Origin: Candidatus Woesearchaeota archaeon
Lineage (GTDB): Archaea > Nanobdellota > Nanobdellia > Woesearchaeales > DSVV01
Length of the DNA: 57,891 nucleotides
Assembly (NCBI GenBank): GCA_016214075.1
Contig: JACRPI010000046.1
Coordinates: forward strand, 1-57,891
Reading direction: 5' to 3'
This document shows positions 37,349-43,919 of the stretch, piece by piece (positions within the stretch are counted from its first letter, which is position 1; each line of letters starts with the position of its first letter). The notes below the pieces were generated by a model. It did not search any database and had not been told where the DNA came from. It saw only the letters and a program-made list of their open reading frames with translations. The position numbers were made by a program, and so were the translations under genes.

Positions 37349-40264
37349 TTAATGAACAAGGAAATAAAGGAAACGAAGAAGTGGGTTCTTTGGACCAGCA
37401 ATTTGTTCTTGCAATGCAGCGAACTCTGCTTCTTGTCTACTAGCAGCGACTAATGAAGCCGCTCGTTGGTATTCTTCTATTTCTGTTCCAAGCGCATGGT
37501 TTCTTTCTTCCAACTCTATAAGTCTTGTTTTATCTTCTGTTGCCTGTTGAAGTCTCATCTGCAGAGAGACATTTTGACCTTCTAATTCTCTCACACGAGC
37601 AGCATGTATAGATTCTTCTCTTCTTCCTTCATAGGTTGTTGCCACTCGTGGTGTTCCTGTCATTTCTGCAACGACATATCTATCTAAGCCAAACTCAAAA
37701 AATTGTCTGAATTCGTCAGTAGGATCTCCTGCTCTTGTTTCCTGATGCCCTTTTTCGTGTTTGTACACGTGAACGAAACTACCTAAATCTAGTAATGTTC
37801 TCCTGCTTAAATAAACATTTCCTGAGGCAATTTCACAAAAACCAAGGAAAGGAATTTCAACACCATCTCTTCTTCGTAGTTTTGAATAAATTTGTGGCGC
37901 ACCTGTATCTCTAAGTCCAAGAACAGCGTTCACTGCTTTATATTTCTCAAGCATCTCTCTTTCTGCTATTGTGAGGTTGTTGTAATCAACAAGTTCAGGT
38001 ATAAACCCTTCACTAATTACTTCTCTTTCCGTAAGAACGCCCGCTGCTTGAAGTGTTTTTCTGAATGATTCAGAAACTTCTATCGGAGTATATCCCTGAT
38101 GTACTGCTTCTAAAGCAAGCAACGGATTAGTGAGTAGAACTGCTTTTTCTCCATACACTTTGTGAAATGCTTTTTTGTAGAGAGGAGCAACGTGTTTATT
38201 ATCGCTTGTAAATTCAATAGTCTGGAACTCAAAAACGTCATTGTGGTTTCCTTTTGCAGCTTTTACTATTTCTTCAATGGTTTCAACATCACTGCATGTT
38301 CTTATAATTTCTTTCACGGCTGTACGAACAACTGTTGGATTCGCAAGATCTCTATCTGGATTAATTTCTCTTGTTTGCAAGTTATAGCTAAAAAGAAGGT
38401 TTTCTTCAAAAAGATCAGTCATAAAAAAGTCTCTGACAAAAACAGTTCCTTTCTGGATAGTGTTCATAATACCATACTTTCTTCCATCAAATACTGCACC
38501 AGCTCCCACTGTATATTTTGGTTTGTAGTCTGGATTAAATGATAAAACATATTTTTGAATATAGTCAAGAACAAAGAGCATGTCTTGTGTAGGATTGTAA
38601 ATAGTAGTAGTAGATCCATTCTGTCGCTCTAATCCTTCAACAACGCGATAATTCAATCTTTTGGTATGATGCCCATCAACAGCAATATCTGTTGCAAAAG
38701 GCATTGCAGCCCAATCTCTGCTTCGTAATTTGAGATCCATTTTAGGGTGTTCTCCTTTTGCTCGCAAAACAGCAGCAGAATACATTTTCAAACCTTCACC
38801 AAATTGACCAACAGCACCTCCTGTTTTCGTGCTGTAAAGCAATTCTAAGAACTCAGGAGCGTACCCTTTTCCATCATCACAAAATCGAAGAGCCAAGACT
38901 GGTTTGTTCCCTCTGGCTGCTTGATTAACCCACTCAGGAGGATATCCATTATATTGACTTGGAATAAGATATTGAATATCTACCCGTGTCCCTCCACTAT
39001 CTGCTGGCATGTGATTTGCAAGTCCATCTAAAATAATGCGAAGCGTGTTCCACTTTCCAGCTCTATATGCGAGTGTCAGCGATGTTTCTGCTGCTCGTTT
39101 ACGAAGATTTTCTGGAGCGTATTTTTCTCCAGAAAGAAGTTCCGCATATTCATCTGCTTGAACTGTGTCCGCTCTTTTGACGCCACATTTTTCAAGAACA
39201 TCTCCGAGGTCTGAGTTAATAGCGACTATTTTATGTCCCATTACTCGCGCAAAATTATCTACTTCATGCGCTTTTCCATTCGCTTTAGAAGGAAGAACAG
39301 CATTTGTTCCAAAAAGAGTGTAAAATGTATCTCTCCAGAGGTCAGGAGCTGTTACTTTTGAACCTAGCATAGCGTTACCAGTAGAACCTTGATATTCATA
39401 CCAAAGCGCACGGTGCTCTATGTGAGATTTACCATCTTGTCCAGACTCAATAATTTTTCTCACTATTCGAGGATCTGTTACTTGAGATATAACCTCTCTA
39501 ACATGATTGTTAAGTTGATACTCACTAACAATATTTCTATCTCTATTTGTTTCTGCAGCAATATTATAGCCAAAGAGAAGTTTACCTTTAAATTGGTCAG
39601 TAACATATACTCCTTTCACATATAATTTTCCTGTTTCATCAAGGATTTCTCCTTGTTCTGTTCTAAAAAGTGTAGAATATGGTCCTGTAAGTCCTAATAC
39701 TTTTCCATGAAGTTCAAGAACATATCGTACTAAAGCATCAAATCGAGAAGATTTTCCCTGACTTTTTCTAAAGATTGTTGCAGAGCCTTGGTTTCTTTCA
39801 TCATGACGAAATAAATTGTACTGAAGTTGTTGAACACGTTGTTCATCAGCAGTAAATTCACGAATAGCAGGAACCGCACTCCAGTCTCGAGATCGAAGTT
39901 CAAGATCTATTCCTTCTCGCACACATGCTGCGGAAAGCATCTTTACTCCTTCTCCAAACTGACCAACGGATTTTTTATCACCTGCTTTTGAACTATGAAA
40001 CACTCCAAGAAGGTCGCAAGAGTATCCTTTCCCGTCATCTGCAAAGCGAATTGCTTCAATTTGTGATGGAGAAATTGCTGTGCGTCTTGAATAAGGAATG
40101 AAAACTCCATTAACGAGGAAGTCAATATCAACACGAGAACCGCCACTATCTGTAGGAAGATGGTTTTGAATACCATCAAGGGCAATTCTTTCTGTACTCC
40201 ATTGCTCTGCTTGATATTGGAGCGTGACAGAAGTTTCAATCACTCTTTCGAGTCTTGATACCAT
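37349..40264 (-). CDS. Tandem GHKL-type ATPase with a HEXXH motif, unknown function
   Basis: A 971-aa protein with an internal duplication. Each unit of about 390 residues begins with a GHKL ATP-binding core: N-box-like LDGIQN (29-34) and LDGLAN (412-417), DDGKGY (76-81 and 463-468) and GQFGEG (101-106 and 486-491). Matching SRDW segments follow, then LLFGYN/LLFSYN strands. After the second unit come a zinc-protease-like HEKGH (836-840), with acidic residues nearby, and a C-terminal coiled coil. The pattern recalls MutL/MORC-like ATPases. The ATG overlaps the stop of the upstream AbrB-like gene (TAATG). Confidence 0.8.
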   Translation of the reverse strand: MVSRLERVIETSVTLQYQAEQWSTERIALDGIQNHLPTDSGGSRVDIDFLVNGVFIPYSRRTAISPSQIEAIRFADDGKGYSCDLLGVFHSSKAGDKKSVGQFGEGVKMLSAACVREGIDLELRSRDWSAVPAIREFTADEQRVQQLQYNLFRHDERNQGSATIFRKSQGKSSRFDALVRYVLELHGKVLGLTGPYSTLFRTEQGEILDETGKLYVKGVYVTDQFKGKLLFGYNIAAETNRDRNIVSEYQLNNHVREVISQVTDPRIVRKIIESGQDGKSHIEHRALWYEYQGSTGNAMLGSKVTAPDLWRDTFYTLFGTNAVLPSKANGKAHEVDNFARVMGHKIVAINSDLGDVLEKCGVKRADTVQADEYAELLSGEKYAPENLRKRAAETSLTLAYRAGKWNTLRIILDGLANHMPADSGGTRVDIQYLIPSQYNGYPPEWVNQAARGNKPVLALRFCDDGKGYAPEFLELLYSTKTGGAVGQFGEGLKMYSAAVLRAKGEHPKMDLKLRSRDWAAMPFATDIAVDGHHTKRLNYRVVEGLERQNGSTTTIYNPTQDMLFVLDYIQKYVLSFNPDYKPKYTVGAGAVFDGRKYGIMNTIQKGTVFVRDFFMTDLFEENLLFSYNLQTREINPDRDLANPTVVRTAVKEIIRTCSDVETIEEIVKAAKGNHNDVFEFQTIEFTSDNKHVAPLYKKAFHKVYGEKAVLLTNPLLALEAVHQGYTPIEVSESFRKTLQAAGVLTEREVISEGFIPELVDYNNLTIAEREMLEKYKAVNAVLGLRDTGAPQIYSKLRRRDGVEIPFLGFCEIASGNVYLSRRTLLDLGSFVHVYKHEKGHQETRAGDPTDEFRQFFEFGLDRYVVAEMTGTPRVATTYEGRREESIHAARVRELEGQNVSLQMRLQQATEDKTRLIELEERNHALGTEIEEYQRAASLVAASRQEAEFAALQEQIAGPKNPLLRFLYFLVH

Positions 40265-40416
40265 TACTTCTCACCAGCACTAAAATCTTCAAGAACTTTT
40301 ATTTTAATTTCAACTGTCGTCTTTGGTTTCAGTTTTTCCTGCAAGAATTTAGGAATAATAATAACTGCTTGGTTTCCTTGTTTGGATATTTGTTTTGTCA
40401 ATGTAATTTCTGTCAT
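40264..40416 (-). CDS. Small AbrB-like protein coupled to the GHKL gene
   Basis: A 50-aa protein (begins MTEITLTKQISKQGNQ) resembling half of an AbrB/SpoVT swapped-hairpin: TKQISKQGNQAVIIIPKFLQ, then KPKTTVEIKIKVLEDF. Such domains bind DNA as dimers and are common as antitoxins. Its stop codon shares a base with the start of the 971-aa GHKL/HEXXH gene, so the two are co-translated. An ATATAAAA element near 40446-40455 and a further TATA at 40468-40483 lie upstream. Confidence 0.75.
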   Translation of the reverse strand: MTEITLTKQISKQGNQAVIIIPKFLQEKLKPKTTVEIKIKVLEDFSAGEK

Positions 40417-40467
40417 CGTATGCCTCTGTTATGTTGTATGCATGTATTTTATATGTAAAAAATGGGG

Positions 40468-40483
40468 CTTATTTATATATTTT
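40468..40483 (-). promoter_or_regulatory. TATA-type promoter of the AbrB-GHKL operon
   Basis: The plus-strand 16-mer CTTATTTATATATTTT is identical to that at 10168-10183 and is preceded in both places by a TGG-containing stretch. Read on the minus strand it is a good TATA box, about 60 nt before the ATG at 40416. A second TATA-like ATATAAAA lies nearer the gene. Between 40484 and 40560 nothing else is seen; a TTTATAAAT at about 40571-40579 serves the divergent ATPase gene. Confidence 0.45.
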
Positions 40484-40600
40484 ACTCTTAGTTAGTGATT
40501 AAAATGCTGTTTAAGCTGATTCCTGCTGCTTTATTTCTCCTTTATATAGGCTCCTAACCCATTCGAAACCTTTATAAATAAACTCTTCTTCACTATTTTT

Positions 40601-41821
40601 ATGGATAGTAACGTACTTTTGTCTGTTTTGAAACAGTGGTCACCATGGGACAAACAAATAGAGATTGGAGTAAAAAGAGATCGCTATCTTGAGCTTCTTC
40701 TCCCGTATCTTGAAAGAAAGGAGGTGCTTGTCCTTAAAGGGGTACGCCGATCTGGAAAATCAACATTGATTAAGCAGATTATGCAGTCTCTTATTTTATC
40801 TGGTGTTCATCCAAAGCAACTTCTTTATCTGAATTTAGAAGATTATGCTTTGAGTGGACATCTCCATCTTGAACTTTTTGAACAGGTTTTAGACACATAT
40901 AACAACTATACAAAAAATAAAAAGAAAATTTATTTTTTTATTGATGAAATTCAAAATATTCCTCAATGGGAGCGTTGGATTCGAACAAAATATGATCTTG
41001 ACCTTACCATTAAATTTATCATTACCGGCTCTTCCGCATCCTTGCTTTCAAAAGAGTTATCTACTTTATTGACGGGAAGAAATCTTTCTTTTACAATCAT
41101 GCCTTTATCTTACGCGGAGTTTTGCATCTTCAAAAAATCAGAAAATCTTGAAGAGTACATGACGTACGGAGGTTTTCCTGAAGTTGTTTTGGAGCAGGAT
41201 GTTGTTAAAAAGAAAAAAATACTTGAGCAGTATTTTAATGACATTATCAATAAGGATATTATCAGTCGTTACAATATTCAAAATACAACACAAATTATTG
41301 CGCTTGCTCGTTATCTTTGTAGTACCCCTGGAGCAAAAGTGAGCTTCAACAAGCTTTCTAAGGTATTTGGCATAACTGACGATACCATTCGAACGTATCT
41401 CAGTTATATGGCAGACGCATACCTTTTATTTCGTGTTTCATATTTCTCTTATTCCGCAAAAATAAAATATGACGTCTCAAAACTTCCAAAATATTATATT
41501 TGTGATAATGGGCTTATTCACGTCGCAAGAGAGCATTATTCAAATAATTTAGGAATGCTTTATGAAAATACTGTCTTTCTTAAACTTCTTGAAAAATCTA
41601 ATGAAATATTTTATTGGGGTGAGCTTCACTCAGAAGTAGATTTTATTCTTGAAAAGAGCGCAATCAATGTGACCGCGACAGACGCCATTCCATCTCGTGA
41701 AAAGCAAGGGTTAGATGATTTTTCAATAAAACATAATGGTTTTTCACTTCTTATTATTGCTCCTTCAAAAAAGAAAGACAACATTATTTCAATCTCTGAA
41801 TTTTTGAAATTCTCTGTTTAA
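40601..41821 (+). CDS. AAA_14/DUF4143 ATPase
   Basis: A 406-aa protein with Walker A GVRRSGKSTLIKQIM near residues 47-61, Walker B KIYFFIDEIQNIPQWERWI near 107-125, and sensor-like IKFIITGSSASLLSKELS. A winged-helix region and the DUF4143 C-terminal domain follow (YYICDNGLIHVAREHYSNN, then FYWGELHSEVDFIL), which looks like a nuclease-fold remnant. Such ATPases are widespread in archaea and often mobile or defence-linked; function is unknown. A CTTTATAAAT box is centred about 27 nt before the ATG. It is divergent from the AbrB-GHKL operon. Confidence 0.88.
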   Translation: MDSNVLLSVLKQWSPWDKQIEIGVKRDRYLELLLPYLERKEVLVLKGVRRSGKSTLIKQIMQSLILSGVHPKQLLYLNLEDYALSGHLHLELFEQVLDTYNNYTKNKKKIYFFIDEIQNIPQWERWIRTKYDLDLTIKFIITGSSASLLSKELSTLLTGRNLSFTIMPLSYAEFCIFKKSENLEEYMTYGGFPEVVLEQDVVKKKKILEQYFNDIINKDIISRYNIQNTTQIIALARYLCSTPGAKVSFNKLSKVFGITDDTIRTYLSYMADAYLLFRVSYFSYSAKIKYDVSKLPKYYICDNGLIHVAREHYSNNLGMLYENTVFLKLLEKSNEIFYWGELHSEVDFILEKSAINVTATDAIPSREKQGLDDFSIKHNGFSLLIIAPSKKKDNIISISEFLKFSV

Positions 41822-41942: not shown

Positions 41943-43919
41943 TCACCCCAATCCCAACTGTTCCATAACCTTTTCTTTGTCAAATTCCTCGAGATTCTTG
42001 TACTCTTGTCCTGTTCCTAAATACAGAATTGGTTTCTTGGTGACATAGCCAATGGACAACGCCGCGCCGCCTTTTTCATCGACATCCGCTTTCGCGAGAA
42101 TAATCCCATCAATGCCTACTGCCTCATTGAACTTTCGCGCTTGATCAACACAATCATTTCCTGTAATCGCTTCACCAATGAAAATTTTGAAATCAGGCTT
42201 TGTGACACGGATGATCTTTTTCATCTCATCCATGAGATTGACATTGCTATGCAGTCGTCCTGCGGTGTCTATAAGGACACAATCAATGTTATGCGCTTGC
42301 GCGTATTTGATCGCGTCAAATCCTACTGCTGCTGGATCTGAACCATAGTCGTGCTTAATGAGCTTGACATTGAGCCTTGTCGTGTGCTCTTCTAATTGTT
42401 GGATTGCCGCTGCTCTGAAGGTGTCTCCTGCGGCAACAACACACGATAGATTATTGTCCTTGAGTTTCTGAATCATCTTTGCGATGGTTGTTGTTTTCCC
42501 TGATCCATTAATTCCGACAAAGACCACGATGTAGGGTTTCTTTTCTTTTATTTTTTCGATTAAATCCACTTGTTCAACGTCAAATGTCTGTTCTACAGAC
42601 TCTTTCAATGTTTTGAGAATGATTTCATTGATTTGTCCGCGAAGTATTTTCTTCTCGACAAGTTCTTTCTTGAGATTTTTTTTAATAAGGTCAATTACTT
42701 CTACAGCGACATTGTTTTCCAGCAACGCGACTTCAAGATCCCAGAAAAGTTCTTCGAATTTTTCTTCAGAAATAGATGTCTTGAAAATCGTGTCTTTGAG
42801 CAGTCCAAAAAATCCTGTTGTTTCTTCTTCAGGCTCTTCTTTTCCTTGTTCCTTTTTCTGCTCTTCCTTTTTTGCTTTCTGCTCTTTCTTTTGCTGTGCA
42901 GCTTCTTTTTTCAGCTGTTCTGCTTCTTTTTTACTTTCTTCTTTATGGTCTTTCTTATGTCCAACTGCTGTTGGTTTTTCCTGTAGTTCAAAGATTGTCT
43001 CTCCATCTTCTGTCTGTGTCACAACAGGAATTTTTTCTTCCTTCTCTTCTTCCTCTCTTATTTCAGGTTTTGTTTCTACTTCTTTGAACGCTTCTTCAAA
43101 CTCTTTGACTTCTGCTTCATTGACTTCAAACGCTTCTTTCTTTTGTTCTTCTTCCTTATGCGTAAACTTATCTTTTAATCGCGCAAAAAATCCTTTTTCT
43201 TCTTTCTTTTCTTCCTTCTGTTTTTGTTCTTCCTGCTCTTTCTTCTTCTTTTCGAGAAGCTCGTCAATCTCTTTTTCTCCTTCTTCTTCTCTCTTGTGCA
43301 TGTCAACTGCATGAATTTTTGCTTCTTCTTTTCTTTCTCTCTTCTCTTGCTCTATTTCTTCAACTTCTTTTTTTGGCTCTTCGATGATTTGTTTCTTTTC
43401 TTCCGCGATAACTTCAATGCCGTAGGTTTCATCAACATATCTTTCTTCTTTCTTTTCCTTGTGTCTTTGCTCTTTCTTTGCTTCTTCTTTTTTTGGAACA
43501 TGTTTCTTTTCAGCTTCCTTTTTTGCGTGCTCTTTTTGCTTTTCTTTGTGCTCTTTAGGGTGCTTTTTTTCTTCAATTTCTTTTTTCTTCTCTTCTCTCT
43601 TCTCTTGTTTTGTCTCTTCTGTTGTTTCCTTCTCTTTCTCACTTTCTTCTTCAGCTTCTTCTTTACTTTCTTCTTGCAGTTTTTCTTCAGAAATCTCCTC
43701 TTTCTCTTCTCCTGTAATTTTATCTTTTAATCGCGCAAAGAATCCTTTCTGCTTTTGCTCTTCTTTCTTTTTTTCTTCTTTTTTCTTCTCTTCTTTTATT
43801 TCTTCAACTATTGCTTTCTTTTCTTCTTCTGTTGGTTCCACTGTTTCTGTTGCTTTATCTACTTCTTTTGTTAACTTTTCAACAGTCTTCTTTAGTGTGT
43901 CTTTGAGAAAGCCAAACAT
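41943..43919 (-). CDS. ftsY: Signal recognition particle receptor FtsY with long charged N-terminus
   Basis: A 658-aa protein. The C-terminal 290 residues are the NG GTPase domain: G1 VGINGSGKTTTIAKM, ATDTFRAAA-equivalent AGDTFRAAAIQQLEEH, DTAGR, and the DEKGGAALSIGYVTKKPI segment. The N-terminal 370 residues are almost all Lys, Glu and Gln. Embedded are similar short modules: MFGFLKDTLKK (1), KGFFARLKDKITGEE (58), KGFFARLKDKFTHKE (242) and TGFFGLLKDTIFK (368). These may be repeated membrane-binding helices. FtsY docks ribosome-SRP complexes at the membrane. Confidence 0.95.
   Translation of the reverse strand: MFGFLKDTLKKTVEKLTKEVDKATETVEPTEEEKKAIVEEIKEEKKKEEKKKEEQKQKGFFARLKDKITGEEKEEISEEKLQEESKEEAEEESEKEKETTEETKQEKREEKKKEIEEKKHPKEHKEKQKEHAKKEAEKKHVPKKEEAKKEQRHKEKKEERYVDETYGIEVIAEEKKQIIEEPKKEVEEIEQEKRERKEEAKIHAVDMHKREEEGEKEIDELLEKKKKEQEEQKQKEEKKEEKGFFARLKDKFTHKEEEQKKEAFEVNEAEVKEFEEAFKEVETKPEIREEEEKEEKIPVVTQTEDGETIFELQEKPTAVGHKKDHKEESKKEAEQLKKEAAQQKKEQKAKKEEQKKEQGKEEPEEETTGFFGLLKDTIFKTSISEEKFEELFWDLEVALLENNVAVEVIDLIKKNLKKELVEKKILRGQINEIILKTLKESVEQTFDVEQVDLIEKIKEKKPYIVVFVGINGSGKTTTIAKMIQKLKDNNLSCVVAAGDTFRAAAIQQLEEHTTRLNVKLIKHDYGSDPAAVGFDAIKYAQAHNIDCVLIDTAGRLHSNVNLMDEMKKIIRVTKPDFKIFIGEAITGNDCVDQARKFNEAVGIDGIILAKADVDEKGGAALSIGYVTKKPILYLGTGQEYKNLEEFDKEKVMEQLGLG

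Follow-up and report, generated by a model that had tools for sequence, protein, structure and literature searches.

The subject of this analysis is a two-gene operon in a stretch of DNA from a Candidatus Woesearchaeota archaeon (assembly GCA_016214075.1, contig JACRPI010000046.1; the whole stretch of 57,891 nt is referred to as the window). Both genes are on the reverse strand, as are all other features of the window described here unless stated otherwise. The first is a 50-aa open reading frame (ORF) at 40264-40416, which encodes a small AbrB/MazE-like DNA-binding protein, a probable autorepressor. The second is a 971-aa ORF at 37349-40264, which encodes two GHKL ATPase units, a zincin-like protease domain and a coiled coil, as judged from the ORF, its motifs, an alignment of relatives, a structural model and a family hidden Markov model (HMM). 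The genes overlap by one base, start codon on stop codon, as a first-pass annotation of this DNA had described, and they lie between a prepilin-peptidase gene and ftsY. The architecture is real, and far beyond what chance would produce.

GHKL unit 1 spans residues 1-381 (39122-40264) and GHKL unit 2 spans residues 382-753 (38006-39121). The family HMM, which was built with the window protein's own units included, places its first domain at residues 5-373 (independent E-value, iE=3.5e-115) and its second at residues 388-753; unit 1 also matches the phage profile phrog_6077, and unit 2 is homologous to unit 1. In unit 1, the N-box is DGIQN (residues 30-34; 40163-40177), where the alignment of relatives shows Asp in place of Glu with the Asn retained. 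The G1 box, DDGKG (residues 76-80; 40025-40039), and the G2 box, GQFGEG (residues 101-106; 39947-39964), are evident in the ORF, the alignment and the family HMM alike. The corresponding motifs of unit 2 are at residues 413-417 (N-box), 463-467 (DDGKG) and 486-491 (GQFGEG). Both units therefore carry all parts of the GHKL pattern (E/D...N, DxGxG, GxxGxG) in the form D..N, DDGKG and GQFGEG, and the earlier description of two full motif sets about 385 residues apart agrees with their positions and spacing. The two halves represent a true duplication, since they align over their full length with 121/381 identical positions (32%, E=1e-58). For the window protein, the approximately unbiased test does not discriminate between a sister grouping of its two units (p=0.11) and the alternatives (p=0.21 and 0.13). 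The N-box Asp is found in nearly all aligned archaeal and two-unit relatives, and phage and other bacterial relatives mostly have Glu.

The protease domain (approximately residues 754-870; 37655-38005) is SprT-like. Its active-site motif, HEKGHQETRAGD (residues 836-847; 37724-37759), includes HEKGH at residues 836-840, and H836, E837, H840, T843 and D847 are each at least 90% conserved in a 13-sequence alignment. Hence, HEKGH is not a chance occurrence. In the AlphaFold2 model, strands 791-798, 808-811 and 816-820 precede a helix (827-843) that bears HEKGH and a second helix (850-869), which is the zincin topology of a HEXXH helix placed after a small sheet and followed by another helix. The proposal that HEKGH is a zinc-protease signature is thus backed by conserved residues as well as topology, with the conserved D847 being a candidate third ligand. 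Profile matches are weaker: the best relative scores 17.1 bits against the SprT family PF10263, below the cut-off of 25.6 bits, and the window protein does not match it. Relatives match HATPase_c, HATPase_c_3, DUF6782 (a putative metallopeptidase family) and SprT-like profiles, many of them below cut-off, including all of the DUF6782 and SprT-like matches; phage relative P0007 is above the HATPase_c_3 cut-off, with a three-unit relative at E=2e-13. The predicted C-terminal coiled coil (approximately residues 878-939; 37448-37633), noted previously, appears in the model as one long helix and is missing from most aligned relatives.

Structure prediction agrees with these assignments. The AlphaFold2 model of the window protein has a mean predicted local distance difference test score (pLDDT) of 76.7 and a predicted template modeling score (pTM) of 0.42, and that of a single-unit relative has a pLDDT of 81.2. 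Every unit of both models has a Bergerat-type topology, as the earlier proposal of tandem GHKL ATPases would have it. Because the pTM is low (0.42), the model does not fix the placement of the GHKL units relative to each other. The solved structures that Foldseek retrieves with the tandem model include HtpG (1y4u; E=1.1e-4, prob 0.98) and TopoVI-B (prob 0.99); those retrieved with the single-unit relative include TopoVI-B and the Hsp90 N-terminal domain. Among viral models, the single-unit relative has a near full-length match (E=5e-25), a match to the T4-type RIIA protein Q6U9V1 (E=8.5e-5, prob 0.97) and matches to SprT proteins (prob 1.00), the last presumably through the protease part. A separate GHKL-protease fold match (E=2e-10) is to A0A3Q8Q6V3 (BFVD), a "putative structural protein" of the archaeal filamentous virus SBFV1.

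How widespread is this family? With the window protein alone as query, scans of genomes and viral contigs were empty, and an alignment of relatives was needed to detect the family. Within the phylum, 371 genomes were sampled and 15 of them (~4%) have a member. The tandem stressed in the first-pass annotation is not the defining trait: the usual GHKL-protease has a single unit, and versions with one to three units occur. Further members are present in Pacearchaeota and Nanosalinarum, with isolated cases in Elusimicrobia, Parcubacteria and Clostridia; among the sampled bacterial groups, the family is rare, with 1/380, 4/391 and 2/199 genomes positive, counting the starting genome each time. The Elusimicrobia, Parcubacteria and Clostridia proteins are co-linear two-unit proteins with 28-33% identity to the window protein, and their occurrence in three bacterial phyla rules out a private duplication in the window genome as the origin of the two-unit form. 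An Alkaliphilus plasmid (pB6464) encodes a 1104-aa protein of three units with one protease, and an Aneurinibacillus protein has two and a half units as annotated. Phages encode single-unit forms, with the protease (Moorella phage MTATph1 and an IMG/VR contig) or without it (Vibrio and Pseudomonas phages). In the tree, the archaeal single units form one clade with the phage forms outside it; for the halves of the two-unit proteins it gives no firm branching order. In all proteins read, there is exactly one protease, at the C terminus, whether the protein has one, two or three GHKL units. One archaeal locus has two adjacent single-unit genes, and in the second of these (L059:5661-7439) HEXXH is gone (ITRLGE), which suggests that a set can manage with one active protease.

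Besides the window operon, the same genome contains another copy, with a single unit (L011:103-1749; start of G000:C13), which ends at a contig end just ahead of the protease motif. A matching protease-domain fragment (TYIHELGHFVTGAGD...) is found at the end of another contig (L012; end of C6), and the gene has probably been split by insertion or rearrangement. In Elusimicrobia RA.bin80 (L104/L068), a two-unit GHKL-protease lies within an open frame of 6484 codons that also has, as judged by eye, methyltransferase-, acetyltransferase- and peptidase-like parts. The GHKL-protease genes of archaeon GW2011_AR15 (L058) and of genome G088 (L030) contain in-frame TAG codons, reflecting either decay or TAG read-through. 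A third archaeal subfamily (L078, L079 and L081, from G280, G136 and G247), which has neither of the small partner genes described below, adjoins a conserved methyltransferase gene and a gene for an 86-93-aa protein.

The place of the small upstream gene is better conserved than its kind. In nine archaeal loci, a ribbon-helix-helix (RHH) gene of 44-54 aa occupies it, directly upstream of and overlapping the large gene except in one locus, where it is one gene away. At two further loci, those of the window and L071, an AbrB-like gene takes this place. The 50-aa protein has no Pfam match and only TIGR02609 (E=0.086) in NCBIfam; its L071 counterpart is 57% identical over 42 aa and matches MazE_antitoxin with E=0.028. 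The gene itself is as previously described, with the AbrB assignment only weakly supported by profiles. No recognizable partner gene is found at L061, L063, L064 or the bacterial two-unit loci. The proposed AbrB-GHKL pair does recur in another genome (L071), but it is not AbrB-specific, given that the partner position is taken by either RHH or AbrB and most partnered archaeal relatives have RHH; likewise, conservation of the upstream ORF holds for its position, but its kind swaps and some relatives have no partner.

The promoters change with the partners. In the RHH loci, AAGTAGTAA/TTACTACTT boxes surround the TATA box, with at least one box in 9/9 promoters and at least two in 7/9, compared with 0.24% of random windows having at least two. 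The nine loci are related, such that these counts are not independent, and their large proteins have diverged to ~40-60% identity. Neither AbrB promoter (window and L071) has these boxes; in the window, the promoter region (40417-40546) contains a TATA-like TATATAAATA at 40470-40479. An operator shared by the two AbrB loci was sought by eye, for which two sequences are too few. The longer RHH promoter pattern has a single exact match genome-wide, at the RHH paralog, which gives no indication of a wider regulon. The first-pass annotation had offered repressor or antitoxin as roles for the small protein. Both partner types are 44-55 aa long and consist of a DNA-binding domain only. Because neither has the neutralizing tail expected of a type II antitoxin, and with the RHH type having its own promoter boxes, an autorepressor is favored and an antitoxin weakened. 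Judging from the sequences, repressor and promoter appear to have been exchanged together, and an AbrB repressor standing where RHH and its promoter boxes stand in other loci would be a clear regulator exchange in a two-gene module.

Divergent from the operon, and outside it, is a forward-strand gene (40601-41821) for an AAA_14/DUF4143 ATPase that matches the candidate defense gene PDC-S01 (E=1e-98). In a sister species, the same chromosomal place has an AbrB-PIN pair and a protease-domain remnant of 63 residues with 77% identity (L029:5824-6108). At L077, which belongs to a different family of the order, the RHH version adjoins the same prefoldin-ftsY pair, ftsY being 63% identical over its GTPase part, and elsewhere in the host's family other accessory genes are found at this place. 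Among distant relatives, one of 480 aa on Salinibacter ruber plasmid pSR56 (L112) lies between hsdS and hsdR, in the order hsdM-hsdS-X-hsdR; others are near a Piwi gene, near cas3 or near SbcCD. These defense-type neighborhoods are individual examples rather than a measure of enrichment. The earlier suggestion of a defense-like module with defense genes nearby is thus borne out for restriction, Piwi, cas3 and PDC-S01 neighbors, but mostly in a distant subfamily.

Some further features of these loci were seen. The type I restriction operon of pSR56 also has a SprT-annotated protease. A related genus (L097) has, close to ftsY, two ATPases that look similar to the divergent AAA_14/DUF4143 neighbor. 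In FtsY of the window (41943-43919), the charged N-terminal region, with many Lys and Glu residues, is unusually long (~350 residues). On Natrinema (L114) and halophilic archaeon DL31 (L118) plasmids, the gene immediately preceding that of the GHKL-protease, equal in length and spacing on both, encodes a 666-aa protein of unassigned family, a possible partner.

What might the operon do? We tentatively read it, with somewhat less than even confidence, as an accessory ATP-gated metalloprotease with its own repressor, used in conflict or stress. First, the AbrB-like protein would bind the shared promoter and hold expression low. Second, the two GHKL units would take up ATP and close, either against one another or against a second molecule, as in Hsp90, TopoVI-B or MORC; an intramolecular clamp within one chain is a plausible arrangement for the modeled protein. 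Third, closure, probably with a bound target (e.g., foreign or damaged DNA-protein complexes), would license the C-terminal SprT-like protease. Fourth, the licensed single protease would cleave nearby proteins. The role of the module would most likely be in cellular conflict (anti-virus or anti-plasmid) or in stress. The computations establish the architecture, the unit homology, the conservation of the active sites, the operon structure, the partner swap along with its promoter boxes, the patchy spread of the family and the defense-type neighborhoods of some relatives; ATP binding, gating, protease activity, substrate, repression and biological role are inferred.

Several observations weigh against an ATP-gated conflict protease. 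We know of no activity for any family member. The N-box Asp is at the position of the general-base Glu and could slow or abolish ATP hydrolysis, although slow hydrolysis may suit a switch. The defense-type neighborhoods are mostly those of the distant L108-type subfamily, which shares ~23% identity with the Moorella phage relative, rather than those of the window's own clade. Some relatives have ordinary neighbors (L108, a methyltransferase and a redox gene; G136, G280 and G247, a methyltransferase). The bacterial two-unit proteins have no small partner gene, and PADLOC has no model for the GHKL-protease family. A more specific version of the ATP-gated protease reading, that of an undescribed anti-virus class in which one to three serial GHKL clamps gate a single SprT-like protease, held silent in archaea by an exchangeable mini-repressor (RHH or AbrB) and with phage-borne counterparts, is on balance unlikely.

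Other explanations have to be considered. The pair could be of the repressor-cleaving type (ImmR/ImmA or DdrO/PprI), such that the protease would mainly cut the small upstream protein once its GHKL units detect an inducing signal, thereby turning on the operon or other genes. The layout is that of immR-immA, where a small repressor gene overlaps the HEXXH gene that follows it, and there is an RHH or AbrB partner with promoter boxes. However, the partner alternates between two unrelated folds, for which protease specificity would have to change; many members are partnerless, phage and bacterial two-unit proteins among them; and a wider regulon is not indicated, the longer promoter pattern being exact only at the module's own promoter in the genome. 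We regard this explanation as improbable. DNA repair is slightly less probable than that: a DNA-loaded GHKL clamp would bring a Spartan-like protease to DNA-protein crosslinks. The SprT-like fold match fits such a role, as does the presence of the DNA-clamp family TopoVI-B among the closest solved folds, and phage relatives are found among replication and repair genes (helicase, ligase, SSB and dUTPase). Nevertheless, the family is rare, patchy and easily lost, unlike a housekeeping function, and its own repressor suggests conditional expression.

A toxin-antitoxin system, with the GHKL-protease as toxin and the small protein as antitoxin, was also part of the original proposal and would account for the overlapping small DNA-binding gene upstream, for partners with antitoxin folds (RHH and AbrB), for the AbrB-PIN pair at a neighboring spot in the sister species and for the patchy distribution. 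It is less probable still, given that the RHH (44-54 aa) and AbrB (50-55 aa) partners have no neutralizing tail, that the toxin would measure 500-1100 aa and that many members are partnerless. Least probable is a virus-derived, RIIA-like counter-defense gene kept by chance in an archaeal genome: phage homologs, phrog_6077, structural RIIA matches and two relatives near recombinase or transposase-like genes would fit, but the archaeal clade is diverse, cell-encoded and equipped with its own conserved regulators, no viral structural genes were seen in the archaeal flanks that were read, and the phage forms fall outside that clade.

How does the GHKL-protease operon compare with known systems? 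The architecture has no name in Pfam, NCBIfam or PADLOC, and searches of the literature on GHKL together with protease or metallopeptidase, toxin-antitoxin or defense turned up no description of it, in agreement with the first-pass annotation. PADLOC had no match for P0001 (the window protein), P0002, or the three-unit and Salinibacter relatives, and its only match was that of the neighboring gene to PDC-S01. Among the nearest known relatives is phrog_6077 (PHROGs; no assigned function), which resembles the window protein in the GHKL unit (E=3e-34) and includes Vibrio and Pseudomonas phage proteins annotated as hypothetical or as histidine kinase-like ATPases. It differs in being a single-unit profile with no protease, and its members P0007 and P0008 have none either. 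T4-type RIIA, a poorly understood phage counter-defense protein (PMC7824862), also has an N-terminal GHKL ATPase and a variable C-terminal part, and is matched structurally; its sequence similarity is marginal, with phrog_2979 at E=0.03 for the Moorella phage relative and no match of the window protein to the PHROG RIIA profile.

The closest proven parallel in layout is VcSduA (Shedu), in which a GHKL domain is N-terminal to a nuclease, anti-phage activity is proven and GHKL control of the nuclease is the authors' hypothesis (PMC12137116). Like the window protein, it is a GHKL ATPase fused to a C-terminal enzyme; unlike it, the effector is a nuclease rather than a protease and there is a single GHKL unit. 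Prokaryotic MORC ATPases combine GHKL with an S5-type second domain and are associated with restriction-modification systems, in an account that does not mention peptidase, protease, zinc or HEXXH (PMC2292703). Similarity to MORC2 is marginal (E=0.4), and one distant relative is in a type I restriction operon. SprT/Spartan metalloproteases resemble the C-terminal domain of relatives in fold and in weak profile matches, but the relatives fall below curated cut-offs and the candidate third ligand is an Asp seven residues past the second His. Pairs of a repressor and a zincin, such as ImmR-ImmA, share with the window operon a small repressor gene that overlaps a HEXXH protease gene; they differ in having a helix-turn-helix partner rather than RHH or AbrB, and the protease of the window is fused to GHKL units. 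If the proposed role is correct, a protease would be a new output for defense GHKL ATPases, for which nucleases and DNA clamps are known, with one to three units per chain. Members occur in archaea, bacteria, plasmids and phages, and the family is close to RIIA in structure, such that a tractable bacterial member could help to explain RIIA. Fusions of GHKL domains to other effectors are already known; the operon would represent a new class of system if a defense role were shown.

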